Below, piece after piece: positions 1 through 5,850 of a stretch of DNA of 5,851 nt (positions within the stretch are counted from its first letter, which is position 1; each line of letters starts with the position of its first letter). This DNA is from a bacterium (GTDB lineage Bacteria; Coprothermobacterota; Coprothermobacteria; Coprothermobacterales; JAADFF01): NCBI GenBank assembly GCA_027063755.1, contig JAMORD010000126.1, positions 1-5,851 on the forward strand, given 5' to 3'. The notes beneath the pieces are model-generated. The model was not told the DNA's origin, did not search any database, and saw only the letters and a program-made list of their open reading frames with translations. The position numbers and the translations under genes are program-made.

Positions 1-672
1 CTTCTGTCTCTCACGGGCAAGTTTTTCCTCCATCTTACCCTCAAAAAACTCTACAAATGCTTTAACCTCCGATGGATAAAGAAAAGTGCCGTTATCTGAT
101 ACACCTAAAACAACAACAACCTTTTTCTTCTTTAGATTCTTATCGGCAAGTATATCTTTCATCACTTCATAGCCTTTTGTCTGAAGGGCCTCATATATCT
201 TCCTTGTAGAACCACTGCTAAGGACCCCCTCTTCCTCTAAAGCCCACAACATACGCTTAACAAGATTGGGAAGCATAAAATTTTTAGTCTTCTTTCCATC
301 AATAGTATCGGCCACCTTGCCATCTACCACTACCTTTTCAAAGGATATCTCTGGTATCTGCTCAACCACCTTATTTTTTAGCTTGCTGATATTCAAAAAA
401 GGCATCATCTGGTATGAAGCATTGGCGTTAGTCTTAACAAAGGGCAACTTAGCAACAAAGTCTTGCTCTGACCAGTCATCTATCTCTTTGACATCAACAT
501 CGGTAACATCTACAACCTGAAGGGGCATACCATCTTTATCTTCTACACTTAGGTGCACCCTAAGGAGCACAAAGTCTGAAGGCTTACCCAGTGGAGAGGC
601 ATATTTAAATATGCCTTTCCCTGACACCCCCACAACCTTACCCATATCCACAAGTGCCTCTAAAAATCCCAA
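1..672 (-). CDS. Possible Cas8b/Csh1 (TM1802-type) CRISPR effector large subunit, N-terminal 224 residues; runs off the window
   Basis: The reading frame is open from a TTG start to the window edge, so the C-terminus is missing. I chose TTG at 672 because it lies 8 nt after the GGGGG of a strong ribosome-binding site; the in-frame ATG at 678 overlaps that site and is less likely. The protein would begin MGFLEALVDMGK, like the short LEAL/IG-K opening I associate with the TM1802/Csh1 family. Other resemblances are a FVLLRVHLSVED strand (residues 34-45), a lysine-rich helix near 96-104, a KIYEAL helix (158-163), a lysine/valine strand (181-190) and GTFLYPSEVKAFVEFFE (195-211), which recalls the strand-then-acidic-helix preceding the family's zinc finger. 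Cas8b is the large subunit of type I-B Cascade and recognises target DNA. This is pattern memory, not an alignment. No cysteine pair is visible because the window ends first. The start is 12 nt past the stop of the 126-aa gene, so it belongs to the same operon. It could instead be an unrelated defence protein. Confidence 0.45.
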   Translation of the reverse strand, partial: MGFLEALVDMGKVVGVSGKGIFKYASPLGKPSDFVLLRVHLSVEDKDGMPLQVVDVTDVDVKEIDDWSEQDFVAKLPFVKTNANASYQMMPFLNISKLKNKVVEQIPEISFEKVVVDGKVADTIDGKKTKNFMLPNLVKRMLWALEEEGVLSSGSTRKIYEALQTKGYEVMKDILADKNLKKKKVVVVLGVSDNGTFLYPSEVKAFVEFFEGKMEEKLARERQK

Positions 673-676
673 ATGC

Positions 677-686
677 ATCACCCCCT
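677..686 (-). promoter_or_regulatory. Ribosome-binding site that decides the TTG start of the Cas8-like gene
   Basis: On the minus strand this reads AGGGGGTGAT, a near-perfect match to the anti-Shine-Dalgarno complement. The gap from the G-run to TTG (672) is 8 nt, while ATG (678-676) overlaps the site itself. The stop codon TAG of the upstream 126-aa gene (687-685) overlaps its first bases, so termination and re-initiation are likely coupled. Confidence 0.7.
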
Positions 687-1065
687 AAGAGTCGCTATGA
701 AGAGCCTGCAAAGCCTCATATACGATGTGCTCTGTAAACTCTTCCTTTTTATCTTTAAATATCTGATACAAATAGTATACACCGGTAGATGCATATCTTT
801 CGGCTATATGCACAGCCTTGTTAAAGGTATCTGCCTCATCGCCTGCAATGGCAATAATGGCGGCAAGCACCTCGTCGGGGAGAAGTGCCACTTTACCGAT
901 ATCATACTTTTTGGGCTGTTCAGGGGCTTTACCACCTCTAACCTTTCCAAGCACAGCGGAGAGTACCCAAAGTAGCGTAATGGGTACCCCCAACTGCTTA
1001 TTAATCTCTTCAAGGTACTTTTTTCCATCTTCGGTTATCTTAATACCAATAGAGGGAAGATCCAT
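685..1065 (-). CDS. 126-aa small protein with a possible DndE-like N-terminal half
   Basis: The ATG start has a textbook AGGAGGTGAT site, with 7 nt between GGAGG and ATG. The site overlaps the TAG stop of the DndD-like gene, so translation is coupled. Residues 6-40 show a short strand (IGIKIT), a basic helix (EDGKKYLEEINKQLG) and a hydrophobic helix (VPITLLWVLSAVLG). This recalls DndE (ikiskeakeyLekLkkrtG, then a hydrophobic helix); DndE is about 110-130 aa and binds DNA in phosphorothioation systems. Lying directly after a DndD-like ATPase is the expected place for dndE. Residues 41-60 form a lysine-rich linker. Residues 63-122 look helical (LLPDEVLAAIIAIAG, then aromatic-rich ASTGVYYLYQIFKD) and I do not recognise them. 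An alternative is a Cas11-like small helical subunit, since the next gene may be cas8. There is no signal peptide or enzyme motif. The gene call is secure; the family call is not. Confidence 0.88.
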   Translation of the reverse strand: MDLPSIGIKITEDGKKYLEEINKQLGVPITLLWVLSAVLGKVRGGKAPEQPKKYDIGKVALLPDEVLAAIIAIAGDEADTFNKAVHIAERYASTGVYYLYQIFKDKKEEFTEHIVYEALQALHSDS

Positions 1066-1076
1066 ATAATCACCTC

Positions 1077-3011
1077 CTAAGCAACCTTCTTTGCCACAGT
1101 ACTACTGGTGGCATCATCGTGCTCCAGCACCCAAATGGTAGAAGCCCTATTTTCAACATACTTTCTCACTTGCTCCCAATCTTTATCATTGAGAAGAAGA
1201 ATAATCTGCCTCTCTTTGGATATATCTGCAAGGACATTCATAACAAACTCAGTAGAATCACCAGAAATATTGGCCGTAGGTCTATCAATAATAACAGGAG
1301 ACTCAAGATGCATAACATCGTGCAAAGCAAGGGTATATGCAAGTGCAAGTATCTGATTTTCACCACCAGATAAACTACCTATGACATTAGCCCCCTTATC
1401 GTCAAGCACCTGAACCTCAAAGTCATCGGTAATCTTCACCTCTTTAAAAGCGTTTTCTTTCCACATCATCTTTCTAAACCAATATGTGGCACGTTGAGAC
1501 AACTCACGGGTGCTATCGCTCATTATTCTATTCATCAGTTTCTCTAAATCCTCACGAAGGGCAAGCGCATGTGTGAGCTTCTTTCTTACCATGTCTATAT
1601 CTCTAACACGACTTTCATTTTTATTAATTGCATTTTTAATACGCTGTATACGGGTCTTCAGTTCATTAATCCTTTTATCTATCTGTTCTCTTTCCTCTAT
1701 CAGCTTTTCTATCTGCTGATTGATACGGGGAATCTCCTTCATAACTTTATTGACCTCTTCAGGCAGATGTCTCTTTATATCTTTGGCAAGCTTGGCCTTC
1801 TGTCTCTTAAGATTTTCTATATCCTCTTCAAGCTCAGCCACCTCTTTACCCAGCAGAAGGATAGAATCGCGATCTTCAAGCAAGCGAGTAGCACGACCAT
1901 ATGAACGCTGAAAGATACCATAGAGAATCTGTGTGGCATCTGCTGTGGCAATATCTTTCAGACGCACTTTAAGATTATTTATCTCTTCTGCTGATAAATC
2001 TCTCTGACATATGGGACATCTACCCTTATCTATAGCATAGCGGATAAAGTCAGAAAGCCCCGGAATAACGGCATCAGCAGACTCTCTTTCTTCTATCTTC
2101 TTCTGCATGTCCTTCATATAAGGTTTGGCAAGAGCCAATATATAGAGCTTTACACCGGCAATATTCCACTGTGATAGCTTTTCCTTCCACATCTTCATCT
2201 TCTGGTTCAGCTCTTCTTCTTTTAACTCTTTTTCCTTCATTTTGAGGCTAAGATCATATGTAGAGTTAGCTATCTCCTTATACTCTTTCAGTTTCTTGTT
2301 GAGACTTGACAACTCTACACGAATCTCTGACTTTCTCTCTATGTGTTCATGCACCTCACGATCATAGTCTTCAAGCTGTCTGTAGAGCTGAGCCAGTTTG
2401 TTGTCTTTAATGGATATACGACCTGTTTGCTCGTTTATGTATGCAGTCAAATCTTCATATAGCTTCTTTAATCTGTCATATCTCAGCAAATCCTTTATAG
2501 TCGTCTGAACATCTTCTCTCTTATCTTGGGTGAAATATTTTTCCAGTGCTTCACCATCAAAGAAGAAGAAGTGACTAACTTTCTGCGGTATAAAGTTATC
2601 AAGCCATTGGGTAAAGTCTTCTTCCATCTCATCGGGTGTCTTTACAGACACCTTAGGATCGGTATATGCAACACTATCTCCAACCTTTTTCAGCCATACT
2701 TTACGCTCCAGTATCCACTGATTTAGTCCCCTTGAAACGGCCATGCGAATGCTCATAGGTACCCTACTAATACCCTCTTCAAAGATACCTGTGTAGTGAA
2801 TAGGTTTGCCATCAACTTCGCTCTTTGTCAGTTCTCTATTGTAGAGAAGATATGAGATACCATTGAGAAATGTTGTCTTACCAGTACCCATCTTTCCAAC
2901 AATAATGTGTAGATCTTCTTCTCTGGTCTTTTCCAGCTCAAAGGTTTCATCTTTATACACACGATACCCTTCAAATGTCACACTATCTATACGGGTATAT
3001 CTCTTCGCCAC
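1077..3011 (-). CDS. DndD-like SMC/Rad50-type AAA ATPase with coiled coils and a CPIC zinc-hook-like motif
   Basis: A 644-aa split ABC-type ATPase. Walker A is GKMGTGKTT (39-47). A run FFFFDGEALE (148-157) matches the FFFDGE motif I know from DndD. Long charged coiled coils occupy about 165-310 and 380-495, separated by a segment with RCPICQRDL (C332, C335), a Rad50-hook-like cysteine pair. The signature is SLSGGE (546-551) and Walker B is PVIIDRP (572-578), followed by a hydrophobic IILLL strand (603-607) and ND. In Walker B an arginine stands where most ABC ATPases have the catalytic glutamate; DndD proteins similarly have IDTP-type sequences. Length fits DndD (about 650-700 aa), which powers DNA phosphorothioation with DndC and DndE. 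The start is GTG, 7 nt after GGGGG; the preceding gene's TAA abuts it with no gap. No dndC lies upstream, so a sibling family of DndD-like defence ATPases is the main alternative. It is cytoplasmic, with DNA as the expected substrate. Confidence 0.9.
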   Translation of the reverse strand: MAKRYTRIDSVTFEGYRVYKDETFELEKTREEDLHIIVGKMGTGKTTFLNGISYLLYNRELTKSEVDGKPIHYTGIFEEGISRVPMSIRMAVSRGLNQWILERKVWLKKVGDSVAYTDPKVSVKTPDEMEEDFTQWLDNFIPQKVSHFFFFDGEALEKYFTQDKREDVQTTIKDLLRYDRLKKLYEDLTAYINEQTGRISIKDNKLAQLYRQLEDYDREVHEHIERKSEIRVELSSLNKKLKEYKEIANSTYDLSLKMKEKELKEEELNQKMKMWKEKLSQWNIAGVKLYILALAKPYMKDMQKKIEERESADAVIPGLSDFIRYAIDKGRCPICQRDLSAEEINNLKVRLKDIATADATQILYGIFQRSYGRATRLLEDRDSILLLGKEVAELEEDIENLKRQKAKLAKDIKRHLPEEVNKVMKEIPRINQQIEKLIEEREQIDKRINELKTRIQRIKNAINKNESRVRDIDMVRKKLTHALALREDLEKLMNRIMSDSTRELSQRATYWFRKMMWKENAFKEVKITDDFEVQVLDDKGANVIGSLSGGENQILALAYTLALHDVMHLESPVIIDRPTANISGDSTEFVMNVLADISKERQIILLLNDKDWEQVRKYVENRASTIWVLEHDDATSSTVAKKVA

Positions 3012-3197
3012 TTATATTCCCCCTTCCTCCTTAACAAGTCTGGTGACATACTTGTCAATAATGCTCTTTGCCTTATGAGAGGATATATAGGTCTCTTCAA
3101 ACCATATCCTCACAAGCTCGCTGAGGGCATATCGTCTTGATTCGTTATCCCATCCCTCCCTTAATGCCTCAAGCACCTTATACGCCTGATCTGCCAT
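3012..3197 (-). CDS. 61-aa helical orphan protein between helicase and ATPase genes
   Basis: A start at ATG 3197 is preceded by GGGAGGTGATTGT, an excellent ribosome-binding site. A longer frame from 3239 exists but would overlap the helicase end and lacks such a site. The product begins MADQAYKVLEALREGWDN and appears all-alpha, with three or four amphipathic helices, a tryptophan in each of the first two (W16, W33) and a basic last helix (KAKSIIDKYVTRLVKEE). There are no cysteines, membrane segments or recognised motif. The site overlaps the helicase TGA stop, and the ATPase GTG follows the TAA directly, so all three genes should be made in step. A role as an adaptor or small subunit between helicase and ATPase is inference from position only. 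I do not recognise the family. Confidence 0.8.
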   Translation of the reverse strand: MADQAYKVLEALREGWDNESRRYALSELVRIWFEETYISSHKAKSIIDKYVTRLVKEEGGI

Positions 3198-3201
3198 ACA
3201 A

Positions 3202-4464
3202 TCACCTCCCAAATAGATGTTCAATCTTTTCCACAACATTGAGATACTCAGAAAAACCTCCCACCGCTTCGCTTGCCAATCTGTCTACACGTGGCATTTG
3301 CAGGCTTAACAGTTTATCCACATAATCACCGGAAACATAGGAAGGTGGAAGGGTTATCGTGTCCCATATAGTGGCAACGCTCTTACCAGCATGCTTTCTT
3401 GTCACTCTACCTATACGCTGAGTAACAATCCTGTGTGATGACGGAGAGGCAAGGAAAATAGCCCTGCGTGCCTGGGGAATATCTACACCCTCATCAAGCA
3501 CCTTCATGGCAACAAGAACATCTATTTCTTTGTTCATAAATCTACTGATTTTCTGTTGTCTCCTTTTTTGAGAGTCATCACCTGTGATCGTCTCATAAGC
3601 AATACCATGCTCTGCAAGCACTTTCTGGGTGTCGGCAAATAACAGATAGGATGTGAATATGATGGTATGGGAAATGTTGTGGTGGCTAATAATCTGTCTC
3701 AAAACATTGAGTTTATCTTTTACCGAAATCATCGTCAGGGCACGGCGTATGGCAAGTAAAGCAGCATCATCTTCTTCATCTTGAGACAACTTTGCAGCAA
3801 TACCCCGTGTATAGTTTTGAAATGTCTCCCACTCATCATCATTCATAAAACTGGCATATACATAGTAGTGATATGGCACTATTACATCGTCGGCAAGGGC
3901 ATCTCTCAGGTCATATGTGTATATGACATCCCCCAAGAAAGCCGATATAAAGGCATTTCCACTTTCGTCAAATGCCCTCTGAGGAGTAGCAGAGATACCC
4001 AGTGTGGCGTGAAACTTATCAAGCCCTTTGAGTTTCTTCATACCATCGGACCCAAAGCGATGAGACTCATCGGCAACAAGCATAGAGGGAGTAGTAGGAG
4101 AAAGATAATATAAAAGATCGTCACCCCACGAGACAAACCATTTATATGTCGTAATGGCAATGGCTTTACTATACCAGCCCAATGATACATATCGTGCTGC
4201 CTTGATGGTATCTTTATTTGTAACAACCTTATCTACATCTAATCCATATTTTTCTATTGCCGATTTCCACTGCCCCACAAGGTGTGTAAACGGCACCAAT
4301 ATAATGACAAACCCTTTGCCCATATGCTTAAAAAACTCCTCGGTACAGGCAAGAGCCGTAAAGGTCTTGCCTGCACCTGTAGCCATGCTAATTACACCTC
4401 TCATGTTGTTATCCAACCACAGCCCAACAGCCCTTTTTTGATGCGGATATAAAGATATAGCCAT
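3202..4464 (-). CDS. SF2 DEAD/DEAH-like helicase (ResIII + Helicase_C), resembling the Dnd-linked restriction helicase family
   Basis: A complete 420-aa superfamily 2 helicase/translocase with all core motifs in order: LYPHQ (5-9), Walker A ATGAGKT (28-34), Ia LVPFTHL (56-62), Ib ITTY (104-107), motif II DESH (132-135), III SAT (158-160), IV IIFTSY (268-273), V VLDEGVDIP (322-330) and VI QRIGRVTRK (349-357). The XPB/type III restriction-like layout uses ATP to move on or unwind double-stranded DNA. It has no HD, PLD or other nuclease domain and only about 60 residues after motif VI, so it must cut through a partner or not at all. A family annotated as DNA phosphorothioation system restriction enzyme has this size and domain content, and the DndD-like neighbour supports the link. 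It is not a typical Cas3 because the HD domain is absent. The ATG start follows AGAGGTGG with good spacing, 12 nt after the stop of the 132-aa gene. Confidence 0.95.
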   Translation of the reverse strand: MAISLYPHQKRAVGLWLDNNMRGVISMATGAGKTFTALACTEEFFKHMGKGFVIILVPFTHLVGQWKSAIEKYGLDVDKVVTNKDTIKAARYVSLGWYSKAIAITTYKWFVSWGDDLLYYLSPTTPSMLVADESHRFGSDGMKKLKGLDKFHATLGISATPQRAFDESGNAFISAFLGDVIYTYDLRDALADDVIVPYHYYVYASFMNDDEWETFQNYTRGIAAKLSQDEEDDAALLAIRRALTMISVKDKLNVLRQIISHHNISHTIIFTSYLLFADTQKVLAEHGIAYETITGDDSQKRRQQKISRFMNKEIDVLVAMKVLDEGVDIPQARRAIFLASPSSHRIVTQRIGRVTRKHAGKSVATIWDTITLPPSYVSGDYVDKLLSLQMPRVDRLASEAVGGFSEYLNVVEKIEHLFGR

Positions 4465-4476
4465 AGAACCACCTCT

Positions 4477-4875
4477 TTAATCTTTGACAACACGAATAGG
4501 AATGAGCACACGCATATCCTCTGCAACATCGGCATCAAAGACATAGATGGCACCATGACCCTCTAAAGCTGTCTGATGCCAATGGCTAAAATATGCAGCA
4601 GGCTTTTTGTAATACGCATCAATGACATTTTGAGAGGCTATCACATTCATAACATAAGACACAAGTTCGTCAAATGAAGAAACCTTCTTTAAAACACTGT
4701 CAAACTCATTGGAGGAAAGCACTACAAACGCTTCCTGTCCTGTTGAGATGATGCAATAGTCGGAAAGTTTCCACAACCAATCAAGATTTTTACGCTGTGC
4801 AATAAAAACTGGAATGGAATCATCTAAAAGATTTCTATCTGTCTGTATAAGGCCACACCCCAAAGATTCCACCAA
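4477..4875 (-). CDS. 132-aa orphan protein of unknown function, second gene of the operon
   Basis: I chose TTG at 4875 because it is 8 nt after the GGGGG of a strong site. GTG at 4884 lies inside the site, and GTG at 4872 is 3 nt further on and also possible. The product starts MVESLGCGLIQTD and reads as a mixed alpha/beta soluble protein. A hydrophobic start is followed by IPVFIAQRKNLDWLWKLSDYC (a strand and a tryptophan-rich helix), a short STGQEAFVVLSS strand, a helical middle (FDSVLKKVSSFDELVSYVMNVI), a YFSHWHQTALEGHG stretch with three histidines, and a final strand pair ending VLIPIRVVKD. The histidine cluster could bind metal, but no known catalytic signature is seen. There is no signal peptide or membrane helix. 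It sits 12 nt before the helicase gene. I do not recognise the family; a partner or sensor for the helicase is only a positional guess. Confidence 0.8.
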   Translation of the reverse strand: MVESLGCGLIQTDRNLLDDSIPVFIAQRKNLDWLWKLSDYCIISTGQEAFVVLSSNEFDSVLKKVSSFDELVSYVMNVIASQNVIDAYYKKPAAYFSHWHQTALEGHGAIYVFDADVAEDMRVLIPIRVVKD

Positions 4876-4879
4876 TACT

Positions 4880-4889
4880 ATCACCCCCT
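4880..4889 (-). promoter_or_regulatory. Ribosome-binding site that decides the TTG start of the 132-aa gene
   Basis: The minus strand reads AGGGGGTGAT, with 8 nt from the G-run to TTG (4875). It has the same sequence and spacing as the site before the Cas8-like gene, and this consistency supports TTG as the real start in both. Confidence 0.65.
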
Positions 4890-4916
4890 ATTGTTTTTTT
4901 CATGCTTTTTCCCCAA

Positions 4917-5141
4917 TTACCAGAGGTCACCCAAGAGCTTCTTCATTTCGCCCTCATATTGACGAGCATAGCCATATCTGTATTCCATCTCCCATGGATC
5001 ATCGGTATCATCCTCCATGTCAAAGTCATACCAGAAGCACTTTGCTGCAAAGCCCCATTCATGGGGATGAATGTAATCATCATCAAGAATAGAATGCCCA
5101 CGCTTTACAGACTTCTCCCCAATATACAATGATTTCCTCAC
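4917..5141 (-). CDS. 74-aa acidic, aromatic-rich orphan protein, first gene of the operon
   Basis: The GTG start is preceded by ATGGAGGTGATATAA, one of the best ribosome-binding sites in the window, which is the main support for a gene this short. The product has a basic start (MRKSLYIGEKSVKRG), a histidine-containing DDYIHPHEWG segment, then a strongly acidic and aromatic centre (residues 36-55, with D39, D41, E43, D44, D45, D47 and D48) and a helical, mixed-charge C-terminus ending in W. Net charge by count is about -7. It has one cysteine (C35) and no membrane segment. The acidic surface could suggest a DNA mimic or a binding partner for a basic protein, but this is speculation. It follows the leader region and hairpin and is probably the first cistron of the defence-like operon. 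Confidence 0.7.
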   Translation of the reverse strand: MRKSLYIGEKSVKRGHSILDDDYIHPHEWGFAAKCFWYDFDMEDDTDDPWEMEYRYGYARQYEGEMKKLLGDLW

Positions 5142-5245
5142 TTATATCACCTCCATATATATGTTCAAACTTTCTCTTCAAGTGCGTATAGGAGGCATAA
5201 AAAGAAAAAATCTGTATCCATCTTCTAATAAATAGGCTGGAAAGG
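5142..5245 (-). other. Leader region upstream of the seven-gene operon
   Basis: This stretch separates the hairpin from the 74-aa gene. It holds a pyrimidine-rich segment (ATTTTTTCTTTTTATG on the minus strand) and the ribosome-binding site of the 74-aa gene. I find no convincing -35/-10 pair: TATACG and TATATG hexamers occur but without a good partner, or too close to the start codon. It also contains an 18-codon frame (5221-5165) with only a weak ribosome-binding site. The operon promoter may lie here in non-consensus form, or transcription may read through the hairpin. Confidence 0.4.
5146..5168 (-). repeat. Leader segment similar to the helicase/61-aa junction (3201-3224)
   Basis: The minus strand here (TTGAACAT, then TATATATGG, AGGTGAT) matches the minus strand at 3224-3201 at 21 of 24 aligned positions with one gap. 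In the second copy the same bases encode the last codons of the helicase and include its stop. Part of the match is simply the shared ribosome-binding site; the TTGAACAT portion is not explained by that. Confidence 0.35.
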
Positions 5246-5274
5246 GCTCCGCCGAGGGCAATCCTCAGCGGAGC
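5246..5274 (-). terminator. Terminator-like hairpin, 12-bp GC-rich stem, overlapping a stop codon
   Basis: The arms are 5246-5257 and 5263-5274 with a 5-base loop. The pairing is perfect except for one position, which is a U-G wobble in minus-strand RNA but an A-C mismatch in plus-strand RNA; this favours function in minus-strand transcripts. The TGA of the membrane-protein gene (5267-5265) lies in the stem. The bases after the stem read CCCTTTCC, so the U-tract is poor; this may be a weak or attenuating terminator or an RNA-stabilising stem. Confidence 0.55.
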
Positions 5275-5672
5275 AGGAGGGAGCAGAAGATAAAAACAAT
5301 CAGAAAAACAACCATAGTAATTAGCATATAAAACTGTAGTTTTAACATGCTGGTTAAAACTTGCAAAAGAGAAGAGTTAATCGTTATCATCTGCTCCACC
5401 GTGCTATCAATATTAGAAAGTCTGGAACGAATAGATTTCATTTCATAAAGTTGAGCTCTTATAGCAGAATCATCATTTTCCTCTATTCTATCCCACATAT
5501 CCTCAACACTCTGTGTAGTTTCATTGTCAGCTCTTACAGTTCTATATACTTTCTCAACAACAGATGCATATTGCTCGGTATGTATGTATCTTTCAATATC
5601 CCAAGCCAAAGTTCCTGCCAATACAACGGCAAATACTACAATCAACAAATAAATAACTTTCTTAGAATTCAC
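5265..5672 (-). CDS. 135-aa small membrane protein: two transmembrane helices flanking a helical loop
   Basis: The GTG start at 5672 is 7 nt after a GGGGGG ribosome-binding site. A longer frame to 5729 overlaps the previous gene and has no such site. The product begins MNSKK, followed by a transmembrane helix (about 6-24, VIYLLIVVFAVVLAGTLAW), a charged, probably coiled-coil region (about 26-105, rich in E, R, S and Q and containing MWDRIEENDDSAIRAQLYEM), and a second hydrophobic helix (about 114-134) ending LLLR. The lysines at the start suggest an N-in topology with the helical loop outside, although the N-terminal helix could be read as an uncleaved signal anchor. It resembles in outline small phage, plasmid or methyl-accepting-like membrane proteins, but I recognise no family. 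It starts 13 nt after the stop of the partial gene, so those two form a pair. It is separated from the helicase operon by a hairpin and may be unrelated to it. Confidence 0.8.
   Translation of the reverse strand: MNSKKVIYLLIVVFAVVLAGTLAWDIERYIHTEQYASVVEKVYRTVRADNETTQSVEDMWDRIEENDDSAIRAQLYEMKSIRSRLSNIDSTVEQMITINSSLLQVLTSMLKLQFYMLITMVVFLIVFIFCSLLLR
5339..5360. repeat. Perfect inverted repeat inside the membrane-protein gene
   Basis: GTTTTAAC (5339-5346) and GTTAAAAC (5353-5360) are exact reverse complements around a 6-base spacer, and the flanking A-T pair (5338/5361) extends the arms to 9 bp. It lies in codons for LTSMLKL. It may be chance, an operator-like palindrome or an RNA stem. Confidence 0.4.
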
Positions 5673-5685
5673 AACAAATCCCCCC

Positions 5686-5850
5686 TTATGTACCTGTGTA
5701 AGCATCACTACTGGGAAACATATACTCATAGACAGGTATGGTAACTAAAGTATTCCACTCATCCCATATATTGCGAAAACCTATCTTTACATATCTAACC
5801 TTTGTAATATCTACTCCATCAGGAATCTTAAAGAACATCCAACCACGACG
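5686..5850 (-). CDS. C-terminal 54 residues of a possibly secreted DUF4352-like beta-domain protein; N-terminus outside window
   Basis: The frame is open from the window edge (codon boundary at 5850) to TAA at 5688-5686. The visible end begins RRGWMFFKIPDG, with alternating strands (KVRYVKIGFR, LVTIPVYEY) and a short tail ending DAYTGT. A G-hhhF-hP-G motif followed by a beta strand recalls the last strands of DUF4352-type immunoglobulin-like domains found in Gram-positive lipoproteins. The piece is too short for certainty; a phage structural or adhesin domain is possible. It is followed 13 nt later by the start of the membrane-protein gene, so the two are probably cotranscribed and may act together at the cell surface. 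Confidence 0.65.
   Translation of the reverse strand, partial: RRGWMFFKIPDGVDITKVRYVKIGFRNIWDEWNTLVTIPVYEYMFPSSDAYTGT

Follow-up and report, generated by a model that had tools for sequence, protein, structure and literature searches.

Can two immune systems that are normally encoded apart be joined in one operon, and if so, would one of them lend the other its specificity? PbeABCD, which in its published form comprises the helicase PbeA, the small protein PbeB, the ABC ATPase PbeC and PbeD, that is DndE (PMC6459918, PMC10853773), has been described as needing DNA phosphorothioation for the recognition of self, and most copies are found without those genes (PMC6459918). Pairs of pbeA and pbeC without adjoining modification genes are in fact the majority, with 320 of 553, making solitary Pbe common (PMC6459918). 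In an archaeon, the system halts viral DNA replication without cutting the DNA (PMC6459918).

The stretch of DNA that we analysed, called the window in the following, is 5,851 bp long and constitutes a whole contig (C126) of a genome of 1.5 Mb in 251 contigs, 88% complete; its left edge is therefore an assembly end. The source bacterium is heat-loving. In tetranucleotide composition, the window gave values of 0.87 with C91, a second contig that is central to the argument below, and of 0.89 with C113, while values with fragments belonging to other families in this phylum did not exceed 0.54, indicating that the window fits this genome. Five open reading frames, all on the minus strand, follow each other with gaps of 4, 0, 11 and 3 bp: an SF2 helicase, a 61-aa ORF, an ATPase, a 126-aa ORF and an ORF that is cut by the contig end. 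The coupled five-gene run that had been read from the sequence at the outset was thereby borne out. Ribosome sites of the AGGAGGTGAT type precede pbeB and pbeD; the one 5' of pbeA is similar to them. Upstream of pbeA, three uncharacterised ORFs of 135, 74 and 154 aa are found on the same strand (4477-5729). The first of these (4477..4884, minus strand), 12 bp upstream of pbeA, is possibly an operon gene as well; the 135-aa protein has no family match in the profile libraries searched (Pfam, NCBIfam, PADLOC) and is absent from the other eight genomes of the phylum.

Judged by profiles, motifs and order, the four genes for the helicase, the small protein, the ATPase and the DndE-fold protein are a PbeABCD-like cassette, a known antiviral module, so that the Dnd-like helicase/ATPase module of the preliminary description is real and can be given a more precise name. 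The helicase (3202..4464, minus strand, 420 aa) matches the PADLOC profile for PbeA with an E-value of 9.9e-102 and NCBIfam TIGR04095, a phosphorothioation-system restriction enzyme, with 2e-77. Of the 672 positions of the PbeA profile, its alignment covers none before 251: the N-terminal part, which elsewhere bears the HKD nuclease, is missing, leaving a helicase in place of the fusion of HKD nuclease and SF2 helicase. The following 61-aa protein (3012..3197, minus strand) is not detected by the PbeB profile and is assigned to PbeB by place and size only, and it is with this assignment that the window has the gene order pbeA-pbeB-pbeC-pbeD. The third gene (1077..3011, minus strand) encodes a coiled-coil ABC ATPase of 644 aa that matches PADLOC PbeC (3e-59) and DndD (2e-47) and contains a Walker A motif (GKMGTGKTT), a signature motif (SLSGGENQ) and a zinc hook (GRCPICQ). 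This hook, CPIC, is of the CxxC type and thus differs from the C-x-C hook of the CxC ABC-ATPase clade. We had considered that it might be unique to this ATPase, an idea that was discarded once a CxxC hook was seen in positional orthologs from 21 of 51 surveyed Pbe loci. All four frames of the cassette are open, with the ATPase and helicase motifs intact and the ribosome sites kept.

For the 126-aa protein (685..1065, minus strand), proposed early on as possibly DndE-like, assignment as PbeD is backed by both profile and structure. A profile built from 49 PbeD orthologs, identified by their position, detected it at 4.3e-7, the next best control being at 0.22. An AlphaFold (AF2) model made with 41 orthologs had a pLDDT of 88 and contained two strand-helix-helix repeats with a long last helix; its best structural matches were DndE from an archaeon (7x4e, Z 9.8) and from E. 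coli (4lrv, Z 8.5), followed by an F-plasmid relaxosome protein of related fold. The predicted model thus supports a DndE fold, with the two ribbon-helix-helix repeats and the C-terminal helix common to both structures, although sequence identity is only about 10%, and although the protein stands here beside a PbeC-type ATPase in a genome without dndC. Indeed, dndC is undetectable in the 88% complete genome, and phosphorothioate modification genes (dndCDEA) do not adjoin the cassette within the window. The cassette is thus without the self-marking partner with which PbeABCD has been described. The Pbe proteins have no close relatives among the sequences searched: the best helicases in genome contigs share 32-34% identity with PbeA.

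The fifth gene (1..681, minus strand; 1-678 from ATG) encodes 227 residues up to the contig end, and its proposed likeness to the N-terminus of Cas8b was the least certain of the initial assignments. Curated profiles gave it no match in Pfam, NCBIfam or PADLOC, and in this respect the Cas8 call was not supported; a custom HMM built from 29 Cas8b proteins, by contrast, did match it, at 24.2 bits and an E-value of 9.6e-6 among 12,637 ORFs, with the next ORF at 0.42. Exactly three of these ORFs rose above noise, namely the window protein and two pieces encoded on C91. The best of 200 shuffles reached 5.7 bits. The window protein ranked third under every alignment program and weighting variant tried, and when the profile was rebuilt from random halves of its set, only the C91 pieces ranked above it in 11 of 12 trials. 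Its score is modest, at 22-26 bits in most model variants: a genome search with the Cas8b alignment did not list it at E 0.1, although a local run of this alignment with the filters off scored it at 22.5 bits. Single-sequence hhalign to Cas8b returned a probability of 8.5%, compared to at most 1.4% for shuffles. AlphaFold of the protein alone gave a pLDDT of 38, which was unusable, and it was left out of the fold search. Relatives were found neither in plasmids and viral contigs nor in 60 genomes. Weak matches at E 0.02-0.05 were judged to be due to chance, two that we inspected being ordinary cellular genes, and a Halococcus gene of 393 aa located 3' of PbeD proved unrelated. Placed in the Cas8b alignment, the window protein begins at Cas8b residue 1. 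The gene is thus best explained as encoding a divergent N-terminus of Cas8b, the large subunit of type I-B Cascade.

Where, then, would the remainder of this protein be encoded? We searched for the Cas8b family in the same genome and in a set of 290 genomes. Within the genome, pieces recognised by curated profiles occur only at the very start of C91, a contig of 7.5 kb on which a partial cas8b, a 131-aa ORF, cas7, cas5, cas3, cas4, two cas1 and cas2 follow one another. On the Cas8b profile, the window protein covers positions 47-178 and the two C91 pieces 290-407 and 463-570, that is, all three are collinear and non-overlapping. The window protein runs from Cas8b residue 1, and a median of 92 residues (88-101) separates its end from the start of the C91 part. 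We conclude that about 280 bp are probably missing between the contigs and that C126 and C91 probably carry one cas8b gene cut by this gap. The central CxxC..CxxC zinc finger of Cas8b would fall into this unassembled gap, the C-terminal part being on C91. The ends of C126 and C91 share no k-mers, no other contig overlaps the window end, and the junction is not bridged; the downstream cas genes anticipated in the preliminary description are hence present on C91, with cas7, cas5 and cas3 beside cas8b, while their physical link to the window is one that we infer rather than have sequenced. The searches turned up no further Cas8b N-terminus in the genome, and the window protein and the C91 pieces alike diverge from canonical Cas8b.

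With cas8b, cas7, cas5, cas3, cas4, cas1 and cas2 in the usual order, C91 resembles type I-B CRISPR-Cas systems (Cas8b/TM1802), from which the locus differs in that cas8b is divergent and split, cas1 is present twice and the gene before the cas8b start is pbeD instead of cas6. The cas8b part on C91 (2-921) is split such that the C-terminal portion forms a separate ORF with an ATGA overlap; this 131-aa ORF matches a 134-aa PADLOC Cas8b model (2.5e-43) and has the appearance of a small subunit with a gene of its own. Further split-type members were absent from plasmids and viral contigs. Cas7 matches its profile with 3e-73, and its closest relative in plasmids is 39% identical, so no close relative was found in this set. 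Cas3 is full-length (735 aa) and contains both the HD and the helicase domain. The two cas1-like genes adjoin (5290-6105 and 6098-7039); the match of the first to Cas1 profiles is concentrated in the N-terminal third, so that this gene may be a partner or an inactive copy. A CRISPR array likely starts at 7447-7524 with the 30-nt unit GCTTTCAGCCTACCCATAGGGGATGTAAAC, whose first ten bases recur at the contig end.

Two other contigs of the genome carry CRISPR loci. On C113, cas6-cas4-cas2-cas1 are followed by an array of eight repeats (5760-6254; GTCTCAATCTCAGCTTGTAAGTGTGGAAAC), and C158 carries a cas6-cas1 pair; neither has effector genes beside it. A cas6-cas8b pair elsewhere, which could have supplied the N-terminus missing from C91, was rejected, as both of these cas6 contigs are without cas8b. 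Given these further loci, the 12% of the genome that is missing may contain a second effector operon; the lack of another Cas8b N-terminus and the common divergence of the window protein and the C91 pieces speak against this.

To place the window among other Pbe loci, we assembled a set from a helicase-alignment scan of genome and viral contigs together with plasmid and phage records. In 51 loci a helicase was followed by an ATPase, most with an ORF of 50-100 aa between the two and 49 with an ORF of 120-200 aa after them, so that the four-gene order is found in about 50 other loci. Profiles for cas8b, cas7 and cas6 detected none of these genes near any of the 51 within the stretches examined, nor did a less sensitive phmmer search find other cas genes there; the neighbourhood of Pbe and cas genes, for which recurrence in other genomes had been named as a check, did not recur among these loci. 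Conversely, cas6 was detected directly upstream of cas8b in 12 of 29 type I-B loci of other genomes and PbeD in none. Short PbeA proteins also occur elsewhere: a few of the loci encode helicases of 455-469 aa that lack the N-terminal region, and no cas genes were detected beside them. The gene 3' of PbeD differs between loci (GmrSD endonuclease, AIPR, PAPS reductase, sigma factor and others), which suggests an exchangeable partner slot.

Compared to published PbeABCD, then, the window has the same order of SF2 helicase, small protein, DndD-like ABC ATPase with cysteine hook and DndE-fold protein, but a PbeA without HKD region, a CxxC hook, a genome without dndC and a Cas8b candidate as the next gene. 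The gap of only 3 bp between pbeD and this candidate makes it appear that two immune systems that are normally apart share an operon. We favour, with reasonable though far from full confidence, the reading that a variant Pbe cassette and a divergent type I-B CRISPR system would form two co-transcribed defence modules in one operon, a single case for which we infer the adjacency of the contigs, the common transcript and the mechanism. The ABC ATPase PbeC and the DndE-fold PbeD would load on DNA as an ATP-driven clamp and PbeA would translocate along it, the Pbe proteins jointly hindering replication of invader DNA without cutting, as reported for archaeal PbeABCD (PMC6459918); such a block without cleavage agrees with a PbeA that is devoid of the nuclease. 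The CRISPR half would independently bind crRNA-matched DNA and cut it with its own Cas3, linkage serving mainly the joint expression of both modules.

A closer cooperation is conceivable, in which the Pbe motor acts together with Cascade and Cas3, for instance by loading at or clearing Cascade-bound DNA, with crRNA replacing phosphorothioation as the source of self/non-self distinction. The 3-bp spacing, the absent HKD part, the lack of a dndC in the genome and the variable gene after PbeD would all suit such a hybrid, but it is known from a single example, Cas3 and the remaining effector are complete on C91, short PbeA also occurs in loci without detected cas genes, and solitary Pbe is common; we therefore regard it as rather unlikely. 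That one transcript should amount to hybrid immunity, with RNA-guided Cascade choosing the targets for a PbeABCD motor that is without nuclease or modification partner, we consider improbable. Slightly less credit still is due to the view that the fifth gene encodes something other than Cas8b, or that it is Cas8b while C126 and C91 are not neighbours, leaving the window as a Pbe locus with an unrelated or uncharacterised partner: the silence of curated libraries, the unassembled junction and the missing part of the genome speak for it, whereas the profile signal clearly exceeds that of the shuffles and of the background of 12,637 ORFs, coverage is complementary from Cas8b residue 1 onwards, and the genome searches gave no alternative candidate for the half that the C91 gene lacks. 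Absence of the nuclease domain and of dndC could also mark a decayed, functionless Pbe remnant that came to lie beside a CRISPR operon by chance, which the open frames, intact motifs and kept ribosome sites make very unlikely. Finally, a Cascade with a Rad50/DndD-like motor in the place of Cas3, as initially suggested, would have adjacency alone in its favour; if C91 is the continuation of the window, the intact Cas3 in its cas operon rejects this idea, and we see almost no room for it.

The apparent junction of the cassette to a type I-B cas8b would be the first Pbe-CRISPR link among the loci and literature that we searched, no linkage of Dnd or Pbe to cas8 having been found in open-licence papers. 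A Pbe copy that apparently shares its operon with an RNA-guided system is also a concrete candidate for another source of specificity. Other arrangements were seen among the surveyed loci. Two of them, L018 and L019 (labelled as gut phages), have apparent Ssp-type phosphorothioation genes directly 5' of PbeABCD, L018 with a GmrSD-type endonuclease after the cassette, and in a Halococcus Pbe operon (L021:7653-8852) a transposase gene is located between pbeB and pbeC.
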